The notes beneath the pieces were generated by a model. It ran no database searches. It was not told where the DNA came from and saw only the letters and a list, made by a program, of their open reading frames with translations. Positions 52,534 to 63,798 of a stretch of 64,000 nucleotides of DNA are shown here, one piece after another. Made by a program: the position numbers and the translations under genes. Source of the DNA: Ulvibacter sp. MAR_2010_11 (GTDB taxonomy: Bacteria > Bacteroidota > Bacteroidia > Flavobacteriales > Flavobacteriaceae); the NCBI RefSeq assembly GCF_002813135.1, contig NZ_PHTY01000001.1:491501-555500 (forward strand), given 5' to 3'. The stretch's first letter is position 1. Each line of letters begins with the position of its first letter.

Positions 52534-54195
52534 ATGAAAGCTTTTTTACGATTTACAGTACTCTTATTAGCCCTCCTAATGCTGTCTTGCCATCAGCCAC
52601 ATGAAAAGAATGAGCCTCCCGTTCTTTGGGAGTCTTATGATGAATTCCAAGAAATTGCAGACCAGCAATCACATGAGTTGCCGCGAATGCAATTTAAATT
52701 AATTCAATCGAAGCTTTTGGACAAGAATGAGGTTTTTCGCCCATTATATAATGATGTTAGTGCATTTTCGGAGTCGCGTTATTTAGAGATCTATCCCTTA
52801 ATAATGGAGCAGGATATTCCCACAATTCAGTTGCATATTTCTAAGGGTAAATTCACTTATGAAGAACTGACTTTATTTTTCTTAAAGCGAATTTATAAAT
52901 ACGAGTTGGACCCTGCTTTTTCTCTACACACCATTATTGCACTAAATAGGAATGTTTTAGAGCAGGCAAGGGCCAGAGATAAAAATAAACTTGAAAACTC
53001 GCATCCTATTTACGGGATGCCTATTTTGCTGAAAGATAACATCAACACCCGGGGTATTAATGCAAGCGCGGGAGCTGCAATTTTAAAAGAGTCTACAGCC
53101 GGAAAAGAAGCCTTTCTGGTAACCGAATTAGAAAAAAAAGGGGCTCTTATTCTAGGAAAAGTTAATTTGAGCGAATGGGCCTATTATTTTTGCACAGGTT
53201 GTCCTTTGGGTTATAGTGCAGTGGGTGGCCAGACCTTAAATCCGTATGGCAGAAAAGTCTTTGAAACAGGAGGAAGCAGTGCAGGCAGCGGGACTTCTGT
53301 AGCCGCCAACTATGCTGTAGCAGCGGTGGGAACAGAAACGTCCGGTTCAATAATCTCTCCCTCAAGTCAGAACTCGGTTGTAGGTCTAAAACCCACTATT
53401 GGAGTTATAAGTCGATCGGGTTTGGTTCCCATATCACATACCTTAGATACTCCCGGTCCAATGACCAAAAATGTTATAGACAATGCCATTTTGCTGGACG
53501 CTATGGCAGGGAAAGATACAAAGGACACCATCACTGTTGTTAAAAGGCAATCTTATCTTATAGCCCGAGTAAATTCCGGATTAAAAGGAAAACGATTAGG
53601 GGTGATGAAGAGTTTGCTGAAGGATTCAATTTATGCAACTACAGTTAAAAAACTGGAAAAAGAGGGTGCAATACTCATCGAATATAATCCGCCGGAAATT
53701 TCACTCGACGGATTTTTAAGTGTTCTTAATCTGGAAATGAAAGCGGATCTTCCCATTTACTTAGCGGCATATACTACTATTAACGATTCCATCAAAACCT
53801 TATCGGATGTGATGGCCTATAACGCTAAAGATAGTTTGATAAGAATGCCTTATCATCAAGGGGTTTTTGACCGAATTATGATCGATAGTACCAGCTCTGA
53901 GCAGCTCACTGAAATTCGAGCGAATTTATTAAAAAACGGCACTGCATTTTTTCAACAACCAATGGTCGAATATAAGCTGGACGCCATACTTTCCATAAAT
54001 AATTATCATTCGGCAGCGGCCGCAGTTGGCCTTCATCCATGTCTAACTGTGCCAATGGGATATAAACCATCCGGAGAACCCATTAGCCTTACATTAATAG
54101 GATCACCTTTTAGTGAACAATCGCTGTTAAGCATGGGATACTCGATCGAAAAAAGTTTGAATGCCCGAAGGATTCCAGAAGCTTATAAAGATTAG
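52534..54195 (+). CDS. Amidase-signature family lipoprotein
   Basis: A 553-residue predicted lipoprotein (MKAFLRFTVLLLALLMLSC, lipobox MLSC). An N-terminal extension of about 100 residues precedes the amidase signature domain. The Ser-cisSer-Lys triad is visible: Lys in MPILLKDNINTRG, cis-Ser in GGSSAGSGTSVAANY and nucleophile Ser in GTETSGSIISPSSQNSVVGLKPT. Substrates of such enzymes are diverse amides, so none is assigned. The envelope location is unusual compared with GatA-type cytoplasmic members. The stop overlaps the convergent response regulator gene by 4 bp. Confidence 0.88.
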   Translation: MKAFLRFTVLLLALLMLSCHQPHEKNEPPVLWESYDEFQEIADQQSHELPRMQFKLIQSKLLDKNEVFRPLYNDVSAFSESRYLEIYPLIMEQDIPTIQLHISKGKFTYEELTLFFLKRIYKYELDPAFSLHTIIALNRNVLEQARARDKNKLENSHPIYGMPILLKDNINTRGINASAGAAILKESTAGKEAFLVTELEKKGALILGKVNLSEWAYYFCTGCPLGYSAVGGQTLNPYGRKVFETGGSSAGSGTSVAANYAVAAVGTETSGSIISPSSQNSVVGLKPTIGVISRSGLVPISHTLDTPGPMTKNVIDNAILLDAMAGKDTKDTITVVKRQSYLIARVNSGLKGKRLGVMKSLLKDSIYATTVKKLEKEGAILIEYNPPEISLDGFLSVLNLEMKADLPIYLAAYTTINDSIKTLSDVMAYNAKDSLIRMPYHQGVFDRIMIDSTSSEQLTEIRANLLKNGTAFFQQPMVEYKLDAILSINNYHSAAAAVGLHPCLTVPMGYKPSGEPISLTLIGSPFSEQSLLSMGYSIEKSLNARRIPEAYKD

Positions 54196-54842
54196 ATAAT
54201 GTTGTGATTTTTCGCCTTTTGTACCGCTTCAATTTTACTGTGCACCTGTAATTTTTTGTAAATATTTTCAATGTGTTTACGAACAGTACTTGGAGACAGA
54301 AACAAATTTTCGGCAATCAAAGTATAACTCAAACCCTTACTCAACTGTTCCAAAACTTCCACTTCTCGCTTGGACAACGAAATTTCTTCCTGATCATTCA
54401 CGTTTTGAATGTCGATAGGGTTTCGCAATAATTTCAGTGTTTTTAGGGCAATAGACGGATTCATGGCCGCGCCTCCGTTAAGCGTATCGAGAATTCCGTT
54501 GTGTAAGTCTTCCGGATTTATTTCCTTCAACAAATACCCATCGGCTCCCGCCTTTATGGCATTAAAAATGTTTTCATCGTTGTCGAAGGCTGTAAGCATA
54601 ATGATCTTAATCTGCGGATACTTTTGCTTTACCATCTGGGTGGTTTCAATACCGTTTAACACCGGCATTTCGATGTCCATAAGGATAAGATCTATATTAT
54701 GATTGTCCTGGAGTTTGGTCAATAATTCACTTCCATTTAAGGAAGTATGTTTTACCGAAATGTCTTCAAAAAAAGAAAGCTTTTCTTTAATCGCATGGAT
54801 TAGGAAGCTATTGTCATCAACAATGGCAATTTTAAGACTCAT
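54192..54842 (-). CDS. LuxR/NarL-type response regulator of the TPR-kinase cluster
   Basis: A 216-residue regulator with a canonical receiver: acidic pair D9-D10, phosphoacceptor D56 in LILMDIEMP, Thr in MLTAFDNDE and Lys in YLLKEINPED. A LuxR-type helix-turn-helix follows (LSKREVEVLEQLSKGLSYTLIAENLFLSPSTVRKHIENIYKKL). It lies just downstream of two histidine kinases but has its own promoter, with palindromic box A 66 bp before the ATG. It is the best candidate to bind the five shared boxes in this cluster, including its own. Confidence 0.93.
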   Translation of the reverse strand: MSLKIAIVDDNSFLIHAIKEKLSFFEDISVKHTSLNGSELLTKLQDNHNIDLILMDIEMPVLNGIETTQMVKQKYPQIKIIMLTAFDNDENIFNAIKAGADGYLLKEINPEDLHNGILDTLNGGAAMNPSIALKTLKLLRNPIDIQNVNDQEEISLSKREVEVLEQLSKGLSYTLIAENLFLSPSTVRKHIENIYKKLQVHSKIEAVQKAKNHNII

Positions 54843-54869: not shown

Positions 54870-54918
54870 TAAAAATACCTATTCTAACCGTGCAATAAAA
54901 TAAGGCAGTTGACGTATT
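54870..54918 (-). promoter_or_regulatory. Palindromic box A and promoter of the response regulator
   Basis: Box AATACGTCAACTGCCTTATT (minus strand, 54899-54918) is one base off the shared palindrome (TTATT for GTATT in one arm). The -7-like TATTTTTA lies at 54870-54877. The box centre is 31.5 bp upstream of the -7 edge, the same geometry as the other four boxes. The box abuts the stop codon of the upstream kinase gene. Confidence 0.75.
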
Positions 54919-56883
54919 CTAGCTTTTTTTGGAAAGTTCCAATTTTACCGTGGTACCTTCCGAAGGAATTGAATGCACAGTAAATGTTCCATCAATTTCA
55001 CGAGCTCTCTTCTTCATATTGGTAAGTCCGTTGCCTTCTTCCGCTTCCGAAGGAATAAATCCATTGCCATTGTCTTTTATCTCAATCTTGTACGTACTGT
55101 TTTTTTCTGAAATATGTACCGAAATTAAAGTAGCCTGGGCATATTTCATACTGTTGTTAACCGCCTCCTGAATAATGCGATAGATATTCATTCCTTCCAC
55201 CGAAGTAAACGTGTAACCTGCACTTATGCCTTTATCAATATGAAATTCGAAGGCCGTTTTTCCCGAAGCTATTTTCGCTTTTTCTATAAAATTGGTGATG
55301 CGGGTTTGCAGGTCTTCAAAACTGATGTCGTTCTTGTTCATCGCCCAAATAGTATCCCGCAATTCATAAATAGTCTGAGACGTAAAATTGCTTATGCCTG
55401 AAAGTTTATTCGTGAGTTTTTCGCCAATATCTTTAAATCCGAAGGGTATATTGTCCAGGCTCGAAATTATAAAGGTAAGTTGTGCGCCTATATTATCGTG
55501 AAGATCTCTCGAAATACGAAGCCGTTGTTCCTGCAGCTTATTTTGAGTTTCGATACGCGCCAAAGCCGTTTTTAATTCGTTTTCCTTTTGCAACTGATTG
55601 TTCTTGAGCTTTTGCTGATTGTACAAAAGATATCCTAATAATCCGAGGACAAGAGCGAGAGAGAATCCACCGTACACCAGGGTATTTTTCCGGCGTACCT
55701 GTAAATCTTTTTCTGCCAGTTGGGCGCGTTGTTTCAAGATCTCGTTTTCCTTCTTTTCGGTTTCGTATTTGGCTTCGGCTTCGGTGATTATTTGTGCATT
55801 TTTTTCATTGAGAATGGAGTCTTTCACTGCAATAAACTTGTACAGGTACTCATTCGCGGTTTTATAGTCCTTTTCCTGTTCGGCCAATTCGGAAAGGCTT
55901 GCATAGCCTTCTTTCGCCGAAAGTTTTATATGGTGCTTTTCGGCAATTTCCAGCCCTTTTTGGAGATAGAATTTTGCCTTCTGAAATTGTTTCCGGCTCT
56001 TAAAACTTTCCCCAAAACCCAGATAGGTATTCGCGAGTCCGTTAAAGTCTTTTACCTCTTCCCGAAGCATTATCGACTGGTTGAAATAAGCTTCTGCATT
56101 TAAATAATCCCGCTTTTTTGAATAGGCTAAAGCAATGTTCGACAGGTTGGACGCCTGTTCTTTTTTATCGCCAATTTGCAGGCTTATTTCATACGCCTTT
56201 TGGTAAGAACCTATGGCTTCGTCATACTTTTCCTGATGATCGTAAATAGCGCCCACATTGTTGTAGCCGTTTTGCAATCCTGCAAAATTCCCCAATCGCT
56301 CCTGAATTTCTAAAGCTTTGGTGAGGTACTCTGTGGTTTTATCGAAATCCTGCATATAATAATATACAATCCCAATATTATTATAAGATTGAGCAATTCC
56401 GTTTTCATTATTGAGCGTTTCTTCGGCCTTCAAGGCATCAAATAACAAGGGGATGGCTTTTTGATACTCCGCTTTTCGAATGTACACCGTGGCGATATTG
56501 TTGTAAACAATGGCATATCCTTTGGTGCTGTTTGTAGCCTTGGCAATTTCCAACGCCTTGTTGTAGTAGCGCAACGAATTGTTGTAATCGGTTTTTCTTT
56601 CGAAGTAATTCCCCAACGCATTCAGGTTGATAATTTTTCCAAAGTTAAAATTCAGTTTTTCAGCTAAGGCAACGCCACTCTCAGCAAAGGCCTTGGCACT
56701 GTCCAAATGAGTTACGTTGTAATGCCCTGCAATTTTCTGATATAAATAGACCTTGGTGGAATCCTCGGGAGCTCTTTTTAAAGCAAGAAGGAGACTGTCT
56801 ATATTTTTTTGAGTCTCTTGAGAAAATGAAAGGGTGAAGCTAAAAAGAAGGAGAATTGTGAAGCGGAGGTTTTTGGTCGGCAT
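54919..56883 (-). CDS. TPR-repeat sensor histidine kinase (HisKA_3), kinase 2
   Basis: A 654-residue kinase. Signal peptide (LRFTILLLFSFTLSFS), then about seven TPR repeats in the periplasm (for example NALGNYFERKTDYNNSLRYY, NNIGIVYYYMQDFDKTTEYL), a coiled coil, and one membrane segment (VYGGFSLALVLGLLGYLLY, about 400-420). HisKA_3 with the phosphorylated His (RISRDLHDNIGAQLTF) and HATPase (N-box IQEAVNNSMKYA, G1 IKDNGNGF, G2 EEGNGLTNMKKRA) complete it. It pairs naturally with a LuxR-type regulator, encoded 76 bp downstream. It lies 23 bp after the 81-residue gene, probably in one transcript. Confidence 0.93.
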   Translation of the reverse strand: MPTKNLRFTILLLFSFTLSFSQETQKNIDSLLLALKRAPEDSTKVYLYQKIAGHYNVTHLDSAKAFAESGVALAEKLNFNFGKIINLNALGNYFERKTDYNNSLRYYNKALEIAKATNSTKGYAIVYNNIATVYIRKAEYQKAIPLLFDALKAEETLNNENGIAQSYNNIGIVYYYMQDFDKTTEYLTKALEIQERLGNFAGLQNGYNNVGAIYDHQEKYDEAIGSYQKAYEISLQIGDKKEQASNLSNIALAYSKKRDYLNAEAYFNQSIMLREEVKDFNGLANTYLGFGESFKSRKQFQKAKFYLQKGLEIAEKHHIKLSAKEGYASLSELAEQEKDYKTANEYLYKFIAVKDSILNEKNAQIITEAEAKYETEKKENEILKQRAQLAEKDLQVRRKNTLVYGGFSLALVLGLLGYLLYNQQKLKNNQLQKENELKTALARIETQNKLQEQRLRISRDLHDNIGAQLTFIISSLDNIPFGFKDIGEKLTNKLSGISNFTSQTIYELRDTIWAMNKNDISFEDLQTRITNFIEKAKIASGKTAFEFHIDKGISAGYTFTSVEGMNIYRIIQEAVNNSMKYAQATLISVHISEKNSTYKIEIKDNGNGFIPSEAEEGNGLTNMKKRAREIDGTFTVHSIPSEGTTVKLELSKKS

Positions 56884-56906
56884 TTAAATTTTTTATTAAA
56901 AATAAT

Positions 56907-57152
56907 CTAAATTTTGATATCGGGTTGAACTACCAATGCTTCCTCCAGATTGTATTTTAAAAAGTGATAGGTGTCCAATCCATTTGACCTAAATTTTATG
57001 TGCTTTTGGTGCTGTGTTACTTCATGTTCTAACGCCCTAATATGTTGCAGATGGAGGGTTGTTATTTTTTTGTTTTTCTGAAAAAAATAAAAGGAAATTG
57101 CTCCAATTGATAGAATTGTAGCAATTATGACGCTAAAAGGAGTAATAATCAT
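56907..57152 (-). CDS. Small single-pass membrane protein upstream of kinase 2
   Basis: An 81-residue protein with one N-terminal membrane segment (FSVIIATILSIGAISFYFF, about 6-24). A basic spacer and a coiled-coil-like cytoplasmic stretch (ITTLHLQHIRALEHEVTQHQKHI) follow, then a tail ending PDIKI. I recognise no family. It has box B and a promoter in front and kinase 2 23 bp behind, so it is probably a regulated partner or modulator of the kinase; that role is inference from position. Confidence 0.7.
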   Translation of the reverse strand: MIITPFSVIIATILSIGAISFYFFQKNKKITTLHLQHIRALEHEVTQHQKHIKFRSNGLDTYHFLKYNLEEALVVQPDIKI

Positions 57153-57170
57153 GAGGTAGTAACTAGGCCT

Positions 57171-57219
57171 TAAAGGTACTGTGAGATGTTTACTTTTGGT
57201 ATACGGCAGTTGACGTATT
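57171..57219 (-). promoter_or_regulatory. Palindromic box B and promoter of the 81-aa/kinase 2 pair
   Basis: AATACGTCAACTGCCGTATA (minus strand, 57200-57219) and a -7-like TACCTTTA (57171-57178); centre-to--7 distance 31.5 bp. The box starts 4 bp after the kinase 1 stop. Confidence 0.8.
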
Positions 57220-57223
57220 TCAA

Positions 57224-59104
57224 TCAGGCTTTAAATTGAATTGAGACGGTAGTTCCCATACCGACTTCTGAATTAATTTCGGAGGTACCTCCCAATTCTT
57301 TGGCGCGTTTTTTTATGTTCTGTAACCCATGCCCGACTTCAATATTGGTAATACTAAAGCCCTTTCCGTTATCTTTAATGGTGATGTGATATGCCGAAGC
57401 GTTCTTGTCAATAGTTACTGAAACCTTGGTCGCATCTGCATATTTCAGGGTGTTGTTAAGTGCTTCCTGGATAATGCGATAGATATTCATCCCTTGAATG
57501 GAGGTAAATTTGGTATCCGCTACAACGCCCTGAGTCACTGAAAAATCGAAATCTATGGTATTTTGAGCCACGCCGGCTTTTTCAATAAAATTGGAAATTC
57601 TAGCCTGTAAATCTTCCCAGGTAATATCGTTTTTATTCATCGCCCAAATGGTATCCCGAAGCTCATAAATTGTATTGGAAGTAAAGGCACTAATATTCCC
57701 CAGTTTTTGTGTTACCACATCACCTGCATCCTTCAAACCGTATTTAAGACTGTCTATGGACGAAATTATAAAGGTAAGTTGGGAGCCAATATTATCATGC
57801 AAATCTCTCGATATTCGCAGGCGTTGTTCTTGTAGTTCATTCTGAGTTTCAATTCGAGCCAGCGCTGTTTTTAATTCACCTTCTTTCTGCAACTGCCGAT
57901 TCTTTAATTTTTGTTGACTGTAGAATAAATAGCCCAGCAGTCCTAAAATTACAGCCAGTCCTAAACTTCCAAAAATGAGAATGTTCTTTTGCTCAACGGC
58001 CAGTTCACTTTCGGCAAGATTGGCACGGGTTTCGGCCAGTTCTTGTGCAGTTTTTGCCGTTTCGTATTTGGTAGCCATTTCGGTAACTTTTGCTGCGCGT
58101 TCTTCGTTAAAGACCGAATCTCTCAAGACATAGAAAGCTTCCTGCCGTTCGAGTGCTTTTTCAAAATCTCCCGTTTTTTTATAGAACCAGGCCTCCTGTT
58201 GTACCACATCTCTAATCTTCTCGATGCTGCCACTTTTTTCGGCGTATAAATTGGCAAGGATAAAATATTCTTTAGCTTCTGCAAATTTGTTCTCTTCATA
58301 GGCTATAGTCGCGAGATTGGTGTAATTGGTCGCCAAATTATTATCTCGTTGTCGCATTTTATTAAGTTCCAGAGATCTTTTAATATACTTTTTGGCTTCG
58401 GCGAATCTCTTGTTTTTCAGCAGGGTATTGCCAATATTGTTGAATATAAATGCAAACCGTGCCGAATCTGAAACCTTGGCGATGTATTTCAGGTTTTTAT
58501 AATGATAAAAGAGCGCACTATCGGGTTTTTTCCAATCGTCGAAATTAATGGCAATTACATTGTTGGCGAAAATTAAATATTTGTAGTTGGTGCTGTCGTG
58601 ATCGTGTAGAATTTTAAAAGCTTTTTTTCCGAAAGCCACTCCTTTTTCATAATCTTCAAAGTCGTGATAGATGTTGGATTTATCGGATAAATGCAAGGAA
58701 ATCATAACGGTATCCTTCATTTTTTCGGCTACAGTTAACGCCTTTTGAATATAATCCAGCGCCAATTCATATTGCCCCAGATTTAATTCGAGATAATGTA
58801 ATTGTTCGTATACTTTCCGAAGTCTGTCTAGTGTATCCAACTTCTTAAAAAGCGGAATTACTTTTTCGGCGAAATAAATAGCACTATCCTTTTCGTTGTC
58901 GTTATGCTTTCGGTAAAATTGAAAATAATAATAATTGGCGGTGTCTGCTTTTTGCTTGAGTAATTTTTTCGACGCATTGAAATAGTAATCTGAAGAATCC
59001 TTGCTGCTATAAGCTTTTAATAGTAGATCATCCAATTTAGAATTGGTTTGAGCATGTAAAAAAGAAGTCAAAAGAATAAAGAGAAGGGAGTAGATGTTCT
59101 TCAT
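57224..59104 (-). CDS. TPR-repeat sensor histidine kinase (HisKA_3), kinase 1
   Basis: A 626-residue paralogue of kinase 2. Signal peptide (MKNIYSLLFILLTSFLHAQ), TPR-like helical periplasmic region, membrane segment (NILIFGSLGLAVILGLLGYLFY), HisKA_3 His motif (RISRDLHDNIGSQLTF) and HATPase (IQEALNNTLKYA, IKDNGKGF, VGHGLQNIKKRA). From the membrane segment to the end it closely resembles kinase 2, while the sensor parts differ much more: a local duplication with divergent input. ATG 59104 gives the signal peptide; the frame upstream uses TTG. No palindromic box lies before it. Confidence 0.92.
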   Translation of the reverse strand: MKNIYSLLFILLTSFLHAQTNSKLDDLLLKAYSSKDSSDYYFNASKKLLKQKADTANYYYFQFYRKHNDNEKDSAIYFAEKVIPLFKKLDTLDRLRKVYEQLHYLELNLGQYELALDYIQKALTVAEKMKDTVMISLHLSDKSNIYHDFEDYEKGVAFGKKAFKILHDHDSTNYKYLIFANNVIAINFDDWKKPDSALFYHYKNLKYIAKVSDSARFAFIFNNIGNTLLKNKRFAEAKKYIKRSLELNKMRQRDNNLATNYTNLATIAYEENKFAEAKEYFILANLYAEKSGSIEKIRDVVQQEAWFYKKTGDFEKALERQEAFYVLRDSVFNEERAAKVTEMATKYETAKTAQELAETRANLAESELAVEQKNILIFGSLGLAVILGLLGYLFYSQQKLKNRQLQKEGELKTALARIETQNELQEQRLRISRDLHDNIGSQLTFIISSIDSLKYGLKDAGDVVTQKLGNISAFTSNTIYELRDTIWAMNKNDITWEDLQARISNFIEKAGVAQNTIDFDFSVTQGVVADTKFTSIQGMNIYRIIQEALNNTLKYADATKVSVTIDKNASAYHITIKDNGKGFSITNIEVGHGLQNIKKRAKELGGTSEINSEVGMGTTVSIQFKA

Positions 59105-59143
59105 ACACAAAGCGATTGGCCGATTCTAAAATACACAAAAAAT

Positions 59144-59170
59144 AAAGAACACGACATAGTCGTGTTCTTT
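59144..59170 (-). terminator. Intrinsic terminator after the 59193 MORN gene
   Basis: AAAGAACACGAC, a 3-nt loop and GTCGTGTTCTTT form a perfect 12-bp stem, followed on the minus strand by ATTTTTTG. It lies between the MORN gene and kinase 1, so kinase 1 needs readthrough or its own promoter. Confidence 0.85.
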
Positions 59171-59192
59171 TCAAAAATTTTCGAAAATAATG

Positions 59193-59954
59193 CTATAATG
59201 CCTTCACAAAATTACCGTTAGACCAGGTTCCGATCTTATCTTCGGTAGAACTTTGACCCTGGTAATAACCTTTGCCATGGTACTTCCCGTTATACCATTC
59301 GCCGCCGTAGTAATTTCCACTTTCAAAGAAAAAACGGCCTTGCCCGTGATATTGATTACTACTGTTAAACTGTCCTGTATACTTATCGCCATTAGCGAAG
59401 AGATAGGTGCCTAAATACATGTTTCCGTTTTTAAAAAAGCCTGTAAACGCATCTCCGTTGCTCCATTTAAATCTACCGTATTTATTTTGACAGTCCCCTG
59501 CAGTACAACCACTGGTTACTCCGTTGTCATAAAAAGTATACGAATCGACCAACTGACTGCTGCTATATTTTCCTTGCTCCCATACTTCATCTTCTACTAT
59601 ATAGCCTAAACCTTGTATAAAGCCGTTTTGGTATTCCCCTACCATGTCTTTTTCTACGCCAAGATACACTCCGTATCCTGTCATGTCGTTATTTACCCAG
59701 AACCCTATATATTTTCCTGAGTCTTTCCAATCGAAAAGGCCATATCCGTTGCGTTTGCCGTTTTCCCAAAATCCTTCGTAATAACCGTGATCAAAGTTTT
59801 TCTTTCCCCATCCGTCCTCACAGTTACCGCTCACGCATCCAAGCGTAGTGGACGAGGTGGTTGCTGCCGTTGGAACACTTGGTGATTGTTGTGCAGTTGC
59901 AGTTATCCCAAGGACCATAAAGAATGAGAGTACAAATAATTTTACTGATTTCAT
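59193..59954 (-). CDS. Exported MORN-repeat protein (shorter)
   Basis: A 253-residue exported protein from ATG 59954 (MKSVKLFVLSFFMVLGITATAQQ). The mature part is a chain of about seven to nine MORN repeats (YYEGFWENGKRNGYGLFDW, GKYIGFWVNNDMTGYGVYL, DAFTGFFKNGNMYLGTYLF, DKYTGQFNSSNQYHGQGRFFF, NYYGGEWYNGKYHGKGYY). Two conserved Cys pairs appear, GCVSGNCEDGWGKK and GCTAGDCQNKYGRF. MORN repeats bind lipids or proteins in other systems; the role here is unknown. It is preceded by box C. Confidence 0.88.
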   Translation of the reverse strand: MKSVKLFVLSFFMVLGITATAQQSPSVPTAATTSSTTLGCVSGNCEDGWGKKNFDHGYYEGFWENGKRNGYGLFDWKDSGKYIGFWVNNDMTGYGVYLGVEKDMVGEYQNGFIQGLGYIVEDEVWEQGKYSSSQLVDSYTFYDNGVTSGCTAGDCQNKYGRFKWSNGDAFTGFFKNGNMYLGTYLFANGDKYTGQFNSSNQYHGQGRFFFESGNYYGGEWYNGKYHGKGYYQGQSSTEDKIGTWSNGNFVKAL

Positions 59955-59978
59955 AATGCTTTGGTTTTTAGTGTTATT

Positions 59979-60026
59979 CAAAGTTAGGAAAGATTTTTTC
60001 AAATAAAATACGACAGGTGTCGTATT
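59979..60026 (-). promoter_or_regulatory. Palindromic box C and promoter of the shorter MORN gene
   Basis: AATACGACACCTGTCGTATT (60007-60026) is the most symmetric copy: the two 9-bp arms are perfect complements. TAACTTTG at 59979-59986 is an exact TAnnTTTG -7 element. Centre to -7 edge is 30.5 bp; the ATG is 25 bp beyond. Confidence 0.88.
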
Positions 60027-60049
60027 TTACATATAAAGGCGGGATTAGC

Positions 60050-61459
60050 CTATTTAAATTTCTTATGGAGCGTTCCTGAAGACCATTCGCCAATTTGCTG
60101 GACCAAGTCCTTATTGTGATAATAGCCTCTTCCGTTGAATTTTCCATTAGTCCACTCTCCCCCGTAATAACCGCCATCTTCATAAAAATAACGCCCTATT
60201 CCGTTAAACTGATTCTCTTTGTTAAACATGCCACTGTATTTATCCCCATTGGCGAAGGTATAGGTTCCCATATACAATTTTCCATTCTTAAAGAATCCCA
60301 CGAAATAATCACCATTGCTCCATACCATTTTCCCATATTTATTCTCACAGTCACCGGCGGTACAACCTACTTCAACATTATTGGTATAAAAAGTATAGGG
60401 TGTTTTTAATTCGCCATTCACATAAATTCCCTGACTCCATTCGTCTCCAAATACAGTAAATCCCATACCATTTAACTTTCCATTGCTGTATTCACCAATA
60501 ATATTATCGTCGTTATCGGCAAGATAGGCACCGTAGCCACTCATTGAACCGTTTTCCCAATTACCAATATACTTTCCTACCCCTTCCCATTTATACAATC
60601 CATAGCCATTTCGTTTTGCATTACGCCAAAAACCGTCATAATAGGCATCCTCATATTGCCATTTTCCCCAACCATTTATACAGTCGCCTTCTACACAACC
60701 AACAGTGCCGGAGGCCACAGTTGTAGTAGTGGCTGTACTTCCCGCATATAATTTTACGGGCTTATACACAAAGGAGGCAATGGTGTAATAACCTTCTAAT
60801 ATGTATGTTTTTACGTTATTGATTTTCACAATGAGATTATTTCCATCCTTTTCGGTAGTCGCATTTGTATAATCTATTGGTTTTCCTTTCTTGAGTACCC
60901 CATACTGGTCTTTATCGGCATCTCTGTACCAATATGTGTTATCTGGGGCAGTAGCCATTTTAGTAATGTTCTTTGCTCCCCAGTTTTTAAAACTTCGCAC
61001 TCCATCCAAATAATAGGTCGCACCAACCCCATCGAGATAATCTATATAATTGCCTTGAATATTGCTGAATTCTCCTGCATAAGATTCGTCGTTAACGTAG
61101 GTAATAAAGGAATACGGATTGGTAAGATAAAAGTCTTTCCCAATATTGGAGGTCAAAACAGAAGCCTTCCCTACAGTGCCTATGGGTGCATCTTTAAAAT
61201 CTTCCAGCAAATAAATTACGCGTCCGGTTTTATCCAGAACGGCTAGCGTATCTGTCTTTAGGTACACCAAATCTTTTACATTAGTTACTGTGTTTCCCTT
61301 CCCATTTCGAAGTACAAAATCGACATTGTTGGTCTTTGTCCAGGAAGCACCGCTAATTTTTGCGGAACCGGTGCTAGACATTGGTGCGGGAGGCACTTGA
61401 GCAATTACATTATAAGAAAGACTCATAACGATTGCAACACATAGGATGAAATATCTCAT
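60050..61459 (-). CDS. Exported MORN-repeat protein (longer)
   Basis: A 469-residue exported protein from ATG 61459 (MRYFILCVAIVMSLSYNVIAQ). The N-terminal half (to about 240) has no recognised family but repeated phrases such as DLVYLKTDTLAVLDKTGRVIYLLEDF. The C-terminal half is a MORN array homologous to the neighbouring gene, with the same Cys motifs (GCVEGDCINGWGKW, GCTAGDCENKYGKM) and repeats (YYDGFWRNAKRNGYGLYKW, GKYIGNWENGSMSGYGAYL). Shared motif order suggests tandem duplication followed by gain or loss of the N-terminal domain. Preceded by box D. Confidence 0.87.
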   Translation of the reverse strand: MRYFILCVAIVMSLSYNVIAQVPPAPMSSTGSAKISGASWTKTNNVDFVLRNGKGNTVTNVKDLVYLKTDTLAVLDKTGRVIYLLEDFKDAPIGTVGKASVLTSNIGKDFYLTNPYSFITYVNDESYAGEFSNIQGNYIDYLDGVGATYYLDGVRSFKNWGAKNITKMATAPDNTYWYRDADKDQYGVLKKGKPIDYTNATTEKDGNNLIVKINNVKTYILEGYYTIASFVYKPVKLYAGSTATTTTVASGTVGCVEGDCINGWGKWQYEDAYYDGFWRNAKRNGYGLYKWEGVGKYIGNWENGSMSGYGAYLADNDDNIIGEYSNGKLNGMGFTVFGDEWSQGIYVNGELKTPYTFYTNNVEVGCTAGDCENKYGKMVWSNGDYFVGFFKNGKLYMGTYTFANGDKYSGMFNKENQFNGIGRYFYEDGGYYGGEWTNGKFNGRGYYHNKDLVQQIGEWSSGTLHKKFK

Positions 61460-61483
61460 AATTGATGGGTTTTTAGTGATAAA

Positions 61484-61532
61484 CAAATTACTCAAAAAAA
61501 TTCAAAAGTTGAAATACGTCATCTGCCGTATC
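61484..61532 (-). promoter_or_regulatory. Palindromic box D and promoter of the longer MORN gene
   Basis: GATACGGCAGATGACGTATT (minus strand, 61513-61532) with a -7-like TAATTTG at 61484-61490, one base shorter than consensus. Centre to -7 edge is about 31.5 bp. The box lies inside the 3' end of the short ORF at 61488-61652. Confidence 0.75.
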
Positions 61533-61652
61533 TTCCTTTTTTTCTGAAAATTCCTGATACTTGCGTTTCATTTCCAAGTAATGCTCATGTGAATTGGCAT
61601 ATTTTCTAGCCAATTTGTCGACAACCGAAGAATCCTTACTGATAGAAACCAT
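61488..61652 (-). CDS. Possible 54-residue soluble ORF
   Basis: From ATG 61652 (or GTG 61679) a charged, helix-prone peptide is encoded: MVSISKDSSVVDKLARKYAN, then a Glu/Lys-rich stretch ending FQLLNFFE. The composition is protein-like, but no family is recognised. Its 3' end carries box D and the -7 region of the MORN promoter, so overlap with regulation would be needed if it is real. Confidence 0.35.
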   Translation of the reverse strand: MVSISKDSSVVDKLARKYANSHEHYLEMKRKYQEFSEKKEDTADDVFQLLNFFE

Positions 61653-61771
61653 TGCAAGATCGTCCAAATTAAAAAGCACCAGAAAGAATAAAAACAGCGC
61701 ATTCCCTCAAACGAGGATATTACTTTTATTCGGATATAAAATCGTCTGAATCATACCTAAATTTATAAAAT

Positions 61772-61799
61772 AAAACCCCATATAGAACTATGGGGTTTT
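61772..61799 (-). terminator. Intrinsic terminator after the beta-propeller gene
   Basis: AAAACCCCATA, loop TAGAAC, TATGGGGTTTT gives an 11-bp stem; on the minus strand ATTTTATAAATTT follows. It lies 55 bp after the stop at 61854. Confidence 0.88.
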
Positions 61800-61853
61800 G
61801 AATAGTGCAGACACTCCTCAGCAATCTACAAACAATGTAACCTGGTTAGTTAG

Positions 61854-63722
61854 TTACTTCTTAAGATCGTACGCGAAAATTGAATTATTATCGGCTTTGT
61901 AATACAAGATGCCCCCAAAATCGTCAACAATATATTCGGGTTGTTTGTCTTTAAGCAGAATTTCTTTTTCTTTAGCTCCTGAGTCTTTGTTGATTTTTAC
62001 AAGTCCAACTCCTTCATCCAATTTTGTTAAAATAAACTGGGCGTTTTCGGTGGCAGCGGTTGCTTTAAATCGGCGTAACATTTCAGATACCGAGGCACCA
62101 CTCGCAGCGGCAAGACCTCCCGCTAATTCACTTTCACGGTCGGCTCTGCTATTATATCCTGCCAAGCGGTTTTGTACCGATGAATTTGCGGCAGCCACCG
62201 AGCCTGTCGCAGCAGCCACAGCTGTTACCCCGGCTAAAATAGCTCCCATTGCACTCTTGCCCGGTGCACGGTAGTACTCATGCCAGGACTTTCCACCCTT
62301 GTTATCCAAGAGCATTAGATTTTGGTCACTGGTAAGCAGCACGCCCCCATTTCTAATCTCTACATGTGTAGGAGCTTCTTTCCCATCGAACTTAGATTCG
62401 GCTAGCGTTGACACTTCTCCACTGTTGGCATCCACAGCAAACAATTCTTCATCCACACTTATTAAATAGCGGGTGTTCTTGCTGTCGAAGGTAGACGAAA
62501 CCGCATCGGCTCTTTTGTACTTTAACGGCTTGCTCCAAACCTGATCACCACTATTAAGGTTTACAATATTGGCATCTTCCGAAGTAATATAAATCAAGCC
62601 TTGCGGGGTATGTGCCATAGTTAAAATATTCTCTCCGGTTTTTAAGGGTTTTTTGAATAGCGTCTGACCATCGAAGGATATTTTGTTGATTCCCCCTTGG
62701 TAGATTCCAAAAAGGATTCCGTCTTCCATGATATAGAAATGCTGCACATACCCTTTCGTTTTTGGAGCTTTGTCCCAAAGATCTTCACCATTTGTTGCGC
62801 TTAGAAATCCTATTTCAGATTCATTCTTTGCGGCAAAGACACTATTGCTGCCCCCATCATCTTTATTGCTCACGATGGCAAGTCCTTGTGGAAGTATCTC
62901 AAAATTTACTACTTTTCCTTTCACTTTTGCAGGGTCTTTCCACAACTCTGCTCCATTGCTCCCTATTTTGTAAACTTTGGTATTGCTTCCGGTATCGGAC
63001 TGGTCAAAACCGTAAATGTCTTTTTCTTCGGCATCTGCAATAACCCAGCTAAGCCCTTTAATTTTTGTTTCCCAAAGCACTTCGCCGGTTTGCGCTTTTT
63101 TAGCTATTAAACCCTGTGCAGTTGGAATAATAAGTCTTTCTTTTAACAACAAAGGTCGTCCTGTTACGCTATAATCTTTGGCAATACCCACTCTATCCGG
63201 ATCACCTAAATTAAAGCGGTAATCTTCATTGCCGGTATTCAAGTCATAAACCGCAACCTGTGTCGCAAACTTTTCCTTGGAAGTGCGTTGCCCGCTCACC
63301 ACAAGTTTATTTTGTGGCATCATTACATCACAGGTGGTCACTATTTTCCAGCCGTTGCCCTCAGTATTGAATAGGGTCTTTCCGGAAATGTAATCGATAA
63401 CCGATTTCTTGGAAGTAATTCCTGCAAATCCGCCCTGAGAAACAATTACATAGGGGGCACCGGGAACAAAATATAGTTCCTCCGGCTTTACTCGTCCGTA
63501 TTCCGTGAAATTAAAAAGCAATTGATTGCTTCCGGGTTTAATACCTACAAGTCCGTCATTGGTTGCAACAACCATAGTACCTCCTTCTGTAAGTGTCATT
63601 TCATTGATTTTTGCTCCTGTATCGTAGCGAAAATCGGGTTCTTCGGCACGTTGTGCCATCAATGTCGATGCCAATAGTAAGCTTAGGCATGTAACTGTTT
63701 TTAAAAATGTTGAAGTTTTCAT
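61854..63722 (-). CDS. Exported PQQ-like beta-propeller protein
   Basis: A 622-residue exported protein from ATG 63722 (MKTSTFLKTVTCLSLLLASTLMAQ). Repeated blades carry the PQQ/quinoprotein-like pattern of 'tryptophan docking' strands: QTGEVLWETKIKGLSWV, NGEDLWDKAPKTKGYVQHFY, NLNSGDQVWSKPLKY, DANSGEVSTLAE. Residues about 475-550 interrupt the propeller with a small-residue, weakly hydrophobic stretch (MGAILAGVTAVAAATGSVAAANSS) and SRADRESELAGGLAAASG. No PQQ or enzyme active site is apparent, so a binding or scaffold role is more likely. Preceded by box E. Confidence 0.87.
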   Translation of the reverse strand: MKTSTFLKTVTCLSLLLASTLMAQRAEEPDFRYDTGAKINEMTLTEGGTMVVATNDGLVGIKPGSNQLLFNFTEYGRVKPEELYFVPGAPYVIVSQGGFAGITSKKSVIDYISGKTLFNTEGNGWKIVTTCDVMMPQNKLVVSGQRTSKEKFATQVAVYDLNTGNEDYRFNLGDPDRVGIAKDYSVTGRPLLLKERLIIPTAQGLIAKKAQTGEVLWETKIKGLSWVIADAEEKDIYGFDQSDTGSNTKVYKIGSNGAELWKDPAKVKGKVVNFEILPQGLAIVSNKDDGGSNSVFAAKNESEIGFLSATNGEDLWDKAPKTKGYVQHFYIMEDGILFGIYQGGINKISFDGQTLFKKPLKTGENILTMAHTPQGLIYITSEDANIVNLNSGDQVWSKPLKYKRADAVSSTFDSKNTRYLISVDEELFAVDANSGEVSTLAESKFDGKEAPTHVEIRNGGVLLTSDQNLMLLDNKGGKSWHEYYRAPGKSAMGAILAGVTAVAAATGSVAAANSSVQNRLAGYNSRADRESELAGGLAAASGASVSEMLRRFKATAATENAQFILTKLDEGVGLVKINKDSGAKEKEILLKDKQPEYIVDDFGGILYYKADNNSIFAYDLKK

Positions 63723-63749
63723 AATCGTGGTTTTAGTAATTTGATATTT

Positions 63750-63798
63750 CAAAGATGACGTATAATAAGACGCGTTTCAATACGGCAATTGTCGTATT
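63750..63798 (-). promoter_or_regulatory. Palindromic box E and promoter of the beta-propeller gene
   Basis: AATACGACAATTGCCGTATT (minus strand, 63779-63798) and a -7-like CATCTTTG (63750-63757); centre to -7 edge 31.5 bp. An extra half-site TACGTCA (minus strand, about 63757-63763) lies between box and -7. Confidence 0.82.

Follow-up and report, generated by a model that had tools for sequence, protein, structure and literature searches.

The stretch of DNA analysed here, called the window, comprises 64,000 nucleotides (C1:491501–555500) of the single-contig 3.03-Mb genome of Ulvibacter sp. MAR_2010_11. Towards its end, genes on the minus strand encode a response regulator (RR), two TPR sensor histidine kinases, a small membrane protein, and exported MORN-repeat and beta-propeller proteins, and copies of a palindrome stand in front of them. 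The interpretation of this arrangement as a regulon, in which the regulator acts through the palindromes on genes for exported proteins, is well supported.

The RR (54192..54842, minus strand) is of the NarL/LuxR type, has 216 residues, and can be divided into a receiver domain (Pfam Response_reg, 9.9e-26) and a GerE helix-turn-helix domain (6.7e-19). Both domains score above the Pfam cut-offs, as is characteristic of NarL/FixJ regulators, and Asp56 is invariant in the alignment of orthologues. The closest named relative, judged by the RR, is an Altibacter metagenome-assembled genome with 91% RR identity. Kinase 1 (54919..56883, minus strand) is composed of a signal peptide, TPRs, one transmembrane helix, and HisKA_3 and HATPase domains, and kinase 2 (57224..59110, minus strand) is also a TPR sensor histidine kinase. 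In both kinases Pfam places TPR, HisKA_3, and HATPase_c in one protein, whereas the signal peptide and the single transmembrane segment were judged by eye. The nearest model for kinase 1 is that of FimS (NCBIfam NF053520); the two kinases score 112.6 and 60.8 bits against it, and, with a cut-off of 600, kinase 1 at 112.6 bits is not a FimS. The 81-residue protein p81 (56907..57152, minus strand) is a small single-pass membrane protein with a charged, coiled-coil-like tail, and its gene forms an apparent operon with that of kinase 1. A comparable small open reading frame (ORF) on the same strand adjoins the kinase gene in 34 of 48 loci, a count that includes a few kinase fragments or longer ORFs. 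The p81-like proteins encoded beside TPR kinases have about 80–100 residues, are single-pass, and strongly diverge in sequence.

A pattern search of the window located all five palindromes described in the earlier note: before the genes of the RR (54899..54918), p81 and kinase 1 (57200..57219), the short MORN protein (60007..60026), the long MORN protein (61513..61532), and the propeller (63779..63798), all assigned to the minus strand. The 20-mer is exact at 60007 and 63779 and has one mismatch at 54899, 57200, and 61513. The palindrome before the RR reads AATACGTCAACTGCCTTATT on the minus strand, has a -7 element TATTTTTA at about 54870–54877, and is conserved before orthologous RR genes, in agreement with the autoregulation proposed previously. 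The corresponding -7 elements are TACCTTTA (about 57171–57178) for p81, TAACTTTG (about 59979–59986) for the short MORN gene, and CATCTTTG (about 63750–63757) for the propeller. The palindromes before p81 and the propeller are conserved in relatives, and the one at 61513 in three genomes (G001, G002, G003). The site at 57200 precedes the p81 gene, as claimed, but the partner kinase of p81 is kinase 1 and not, as had been thought, kinase 2. The pattern search detected no palindrome in the gap from kinase 2 up to 59193, and kinase 2 is probably read from the promoter of the short MORN gene.

The window contains six matches to the palindrome at three or fewer mismatches, compared to 0.27 expected in shuffled sequences. 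In the whole genome there are six copies with at most one mismatch, all within a single 10-kb locus (C1:546399–556046) that extends from position 54899 of the window to about 0.5 kb beyond its end, so the palindrome is not scattered over the chromosome. The sixth copy, which the earlier count of five had not included, is located about 0.5 kb past the window end, upstream of the gene lipo192, which encodes a DUF6252 lipoprotein. A palindrome with two mismatches 16 bp before an hppD-like gene (C1:971965–971984) was not counted, since it falls outside the strict motif defined below and leaves no room for a promoter; it is probably a chance occurrence or the site of another regulator.

The position of the palindrome relative to the promoter was determined for 130 oriented sites, using the Bacteroidota -7 element TANNTTTG with up to one mismatch. 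The element starts at offset 32 from the palindrome centre in 89 of the 130 sites, compared to approximately 1.6 expected per offset, and at offset 31 or 33 in 15 further sites. Offset 33 is occupied by A and offsets 36–38 by TTT at 85–96%, and the palindrome centre is mostly positioned 53–71 bp upstream of the start codon. The earlier distance of 30.5–31.5 bp between the centre and the -7 element is correct for most sites, the first base of the element being at offset 31 or 32. The -7 box is placed at -12 to -5 (PMC9723704), which, together with the fixed offset, puts the palindrome centre at about -43.5. This is a normal activator position, as the earlier note stated, although its figure of about -45 is not exact. 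The right half-site extends into the -33 region, and the constant phasing to the -7 element favours an activator.

Conservation of the system was surveyed in 299 sampled genomes of the Flavobacteriaceae, among which RR orthologues called at E 1e-60 occur in 76, so that the system is recognisable in about a quarter of them. The palindromes are kept before the same genes in the orthologous loci of three genomes of the same genus and of several other genera. A position weight matrix (PWM) scan of 49 loci identified 121 sites at the cut-off score of at least 14, compared to two in the reversed sequence. At a threshold of 12, sites are located upstream of lipo192 (30), the RR (25), the propeller (19), p81 (16), and MORN genes (13), and 76 distinct lipo192 promoters carry palindrome sites. 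The locus comparison and the scan thus bear out the expected conservation before orthologous genes. Of 30 RR-positive genomes, 29 carry the strict motif ATAVGNCANNTGNCBTAT, in 2–7 copies each, and the reversed pattern has a single match in the whole set; among RR-negative genomes, one of 20 carries the motif (Fisher p 1.3e-11). Additional two-mismatch matches in G001 and matches in G045 and G271 (L200, L203) are intragenic and were regarded as chance occurrences. In the RR-negative genomes the propeller was found in 0 of 20, by a search that had no positive control genome, and lipo192 in 1 of 20, where the lone divergent relative is not preceded by a palindrome. Therefore, the whole unit appears to be gained or lost together. 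The conserved core of the predicted regulon is formed by the DUF6252 lipoprotein, the propeller, p81 with its kinase, and the RR; of the outputs named in the earlier note, the propeller belongs to this core, whereas the MORN proteins are an addition found in Altibacter-like lineages.

The predicted regulon extends to unlinked exported genes in other genomes, and the palindrome copies outside the locus mostly precede genes for exported proteins. In G223, the RR gene has parted from its target genes, which have kept their sites. The RR gene is on contig 23, where one site precedes it and another precedes the gene of a papain-like exported protein; lipo192, a gene for a 357-residue exported protein, and the p81/kinase genes, each with a site of its own, are on contig 8. 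Unlinked sites precede genes for papain-like C1 peptidases (G015, G250), small predicted barrels (G001, G222, G250), and lipoproteins (G003, G210), and within the G210 locus an OmpA/PD40 protein gene is also preceded by a site. In a genome of another family (G037), with an RR of 48% identity, two strong sites stand before genes for exported proteins, and the gap to a -7 element is again 21 bp. A papain-like C1 peptidase recurs among the targets of three genera (L042, L093, L211); its gene adjoins that of the RR in one of them and is unlinked in the other two, and both members scanned contain a DUF4384 domain. Two further unlinked exported targets, of 298 and 267 residues (L204, L207), have by eye the look of YwqK/RHS-type repeats, and they may substitute functionally for the MORN proteins. 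A family of exported proteins with about 350 residues replaces or accompanies the propeller in several loci (L096, L114, L117, L199); the palindrome is located upstream of its genes in L117 and L199, and the two members scanned have no Pfam match.

Taken as a whole, the arrangement is very probably a self-contained two-component regulon of this family, in which TPR kinases signal to the NarL-type RR, which activates its own gene and those of envelope and surface proteins. One or two kinases with periplasmic TPR domains would sense an envelope or extracellular cue, possibly helped by p81; the p81-like small membrane proteins are possible kinase modulators. As the domain architecture suggests, the TPR kinase would phosphorylate the RR. 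The RR dimer would then bind TACGNCA-NN-TGNCGTA, which has its centre at about -43.5 and borders on the -33 region. The site geometry and fixed phasing suggest that it would activate a sigma-A-type (TAnnTTTG) promoter. The expected targets are the genes of the RR, p81 and kinase, DUF6252 lipoprotein, and beta-propeller, joined in some lineages by MORN genes and in other genomes by unlinked genes for exported proteins. A more elaborate scheme, which we consider rather unlikely, is an envelope surveillance loop specific to Bacteroidota: a TPR kinase gated by p81 would monitor its own induced outputs, namely the lipoprotein, the propeller, and the MORN proteins, providing Rcs-like homeostasis with unrelated sensing parts, and the DNA specificity of the RR would have switched once in the family, together with a change from P-S to x-G at the start of the recognition helix.

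The palindrome has the 7-2-7 inverted-repeat form of NarL sites, and we infer that the RR is its binder. It is very improbable that a different transcription factor binds the palindromes and that the RR is merely another target, as the sites before the RR gene would also allow; sequence alone cannot prove NarL-type specificity, but, of the DNA-binding genes observed in the loci, only that of the RR constantly accompanies the targets, and the sites vanish from genomes without the RR. In addition, motif specificity and recognition helix differ together between clades. Where the recognition helix of the RR reads SPST, the CA..TG core of the sites is fixed and position 5 varies; where it reads xGT, TACG..CGTA is fixed and the core is relaxed. 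Fisher tests of this association give 1e-11 and 2e-8 at RR promoters and 5e-14 and 8e-11 at lipo192 promoters. The two clades thus offer a natural example of drift in specificity. Several observations weigh against the assignment of the RR as the binder. The tree requires only two changes of helix type, and the covariation comes from essentially one clade. The second, small GT clade (two Flavobacterium) does not repeat the pattern: just one of its members has sites, and these show the strict core. In several lineages, including much of Flavobacterium, the RR promoter has no recognisable site, and, since genomes that lack the RR have lost the targets as well, the joint absence of RR and sites is not enough to identify the RR as the binder. 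Because the tree contains essentially one informative switch, the correlation between helix and motif counts as supporting and not as strong evidence; close to a single evolutionary observation, it supports the RR as the binder.

Binding of the same RR could also result in repression, relieved or enforced by the kinase, since the -33 region that the palindrome abuts is a place where a repressor could act too. This is unlikely: the exact helical phasing of the sites is a demand of an activator, not of a repressor. Furthermore, Escherichia coli NarL activates ogt from a 7-2-7 inverted repeat at -44.5, beside the -35 element (PMC7419079), and FimR, which is partnered with a TPR kinase, is an activator. 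One palindrome follows directly after the stop codon of kinase 1 (54919), where a terminator could stand. The palindromes might then have no promoter function and be mobile or terminator-like repeats or hairpins in transcribed RNA. Such an origin of the palindromes is contradicted by their position statistics and can be practically dismissed: they number just 2–7 per genome, stand before predicted promoters at fixed distances to -7 elements and start codons, and the copy at 61513 has been retained while the adjoining DUF6498 gene decayed.

Systems that pair a TPR-type sensor kinase with a NarL-type regulator appear to be common in Bacteroidota; to our knowledge, signals, binding sites, and target sets are established for very few of them. 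For one such system, the regulon described here provides a precise predicted operator, the promoter phasing, and a core target set, places several DUF and hypothetical exported proteins under common control, and constitutes a clear, testable circuit in a poorly studied bacterial group. The consensus heptamer of NarL is TACYYMT. The NarX/NarL system (NarL at ogt and yeaR) shares with the one described here the receiver and GerE regulator, the 7-2-7 repeat, and a near-identical activator position, but differs in that the heptamer here is TACGNCA, the promoter is of the Bacteroidota type, the sensor is a TPR domain and not a nitrate sensor, and the targets belong to the envelope. VraR is the best solved-structure match to the RR by sequence profile, and LiaS is among the kinase model matches; however, the VraR/LiaR systems are Gram-positive, have other sensors and targets, and are similar at the superfamily level. 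A functional parallel is the Rcs system, which links a surface-exposed lipoprotein and genes of the envelope to a NarL-family regulator, whereas the kinases here have TPR sensors. The closest characterised system is FimS/FimR of Porphyromonas gingivalis, in which the histidine kinase FimS has a sensor domain of periplasmic TPRs (PMC11053733) and FimR activates genes for surface structures by binding to a promoter (PMC1974823). The system described here shares with it the TPR-sensor kinase and a regulator predicted to bind promoters of surface genes. The p81 gene and the second kinase are additional here, and the FimR paper (PMC1974823) does not mention a palindrome. Fimbrial families were not detected among the targets scanned, which were not all of the targets, and no genome search for fimbrial genes was made. 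The remark of the earlier note that it knew of no described system of this composition holds for the open-licence literature searched, in which no account of this regulon was found and outside which most subscription papers fall, except that FimS/FimR is architecturally related.

The output proteins are exported, as proposed, with signal-peptide-like N-termini on the MORN and propeller proteins and a lipobox on the sixth target. The short MORN-repeat protein (59193..60002, minus strand) matches Pfam MORN at 4.2e-13, and the long one (60050..61495, minus strand; probable ATG at 61459) at 1.7e-8. The predicted model of the long protein (pLDDT 70.6) matches eukaryotic MORN1 structures at 1.1e-13, which confirms the MORN repeats only. 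The -7 region of the long MORN gene reads TAATTTGT and fits the alternative SM5 box TAnnTTGY, described in Flavobacterium psychrophilum (PMC9723704), better than TAnnTTTG. Next to its palindrome is a remnant of a DUF6498 membrane-protein gene (61542–61754, minus strand), of which the N-terminal 19 residues, with an internal stop, and the C-terminal 40 are left and the middle is gone; the gene is intact (242 residues) in three relatives of the same genus. The propeller protein (61854..63752, minus strand) is PQQ/BamB-like (Pfam PQQ_2, 5.8e-16), but its 38.6 bits against the BamB model, with a cut-off of 285.2, identify it as a PQQ-type propeller only. The sixth target belongs to DUF6252 (36.6 bits, Pfam gathering score 27.2) and is a near relative of the NCBIfam family Riean_0653, aligning over its full length at 53.1 bits, just below the cut-off of 57. 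A fold search with its confident all-beta model (mean pLDDT 86.9) gave no significant match. In Bacteroidota, an acidic motif of the C-X-K-(D/E)2 or S-D-D type right after the lipobox cysteine, the lipoprotein export signal, directs surface export (PMC5080379). The lipobox of the sixth target continues as CKKDDDG, in accordance with this rule, and DD is present at positions +2 to +6 in 92 of 100 homologues, so the N terminus is of the surface-export type and the protein is predicted to be at the cell surface. A Riemerella relative affects haemolysis and is itself no haemolysin (PMC7881567), which by analogy fits loosely with a surface role of the DUF6252 protein.

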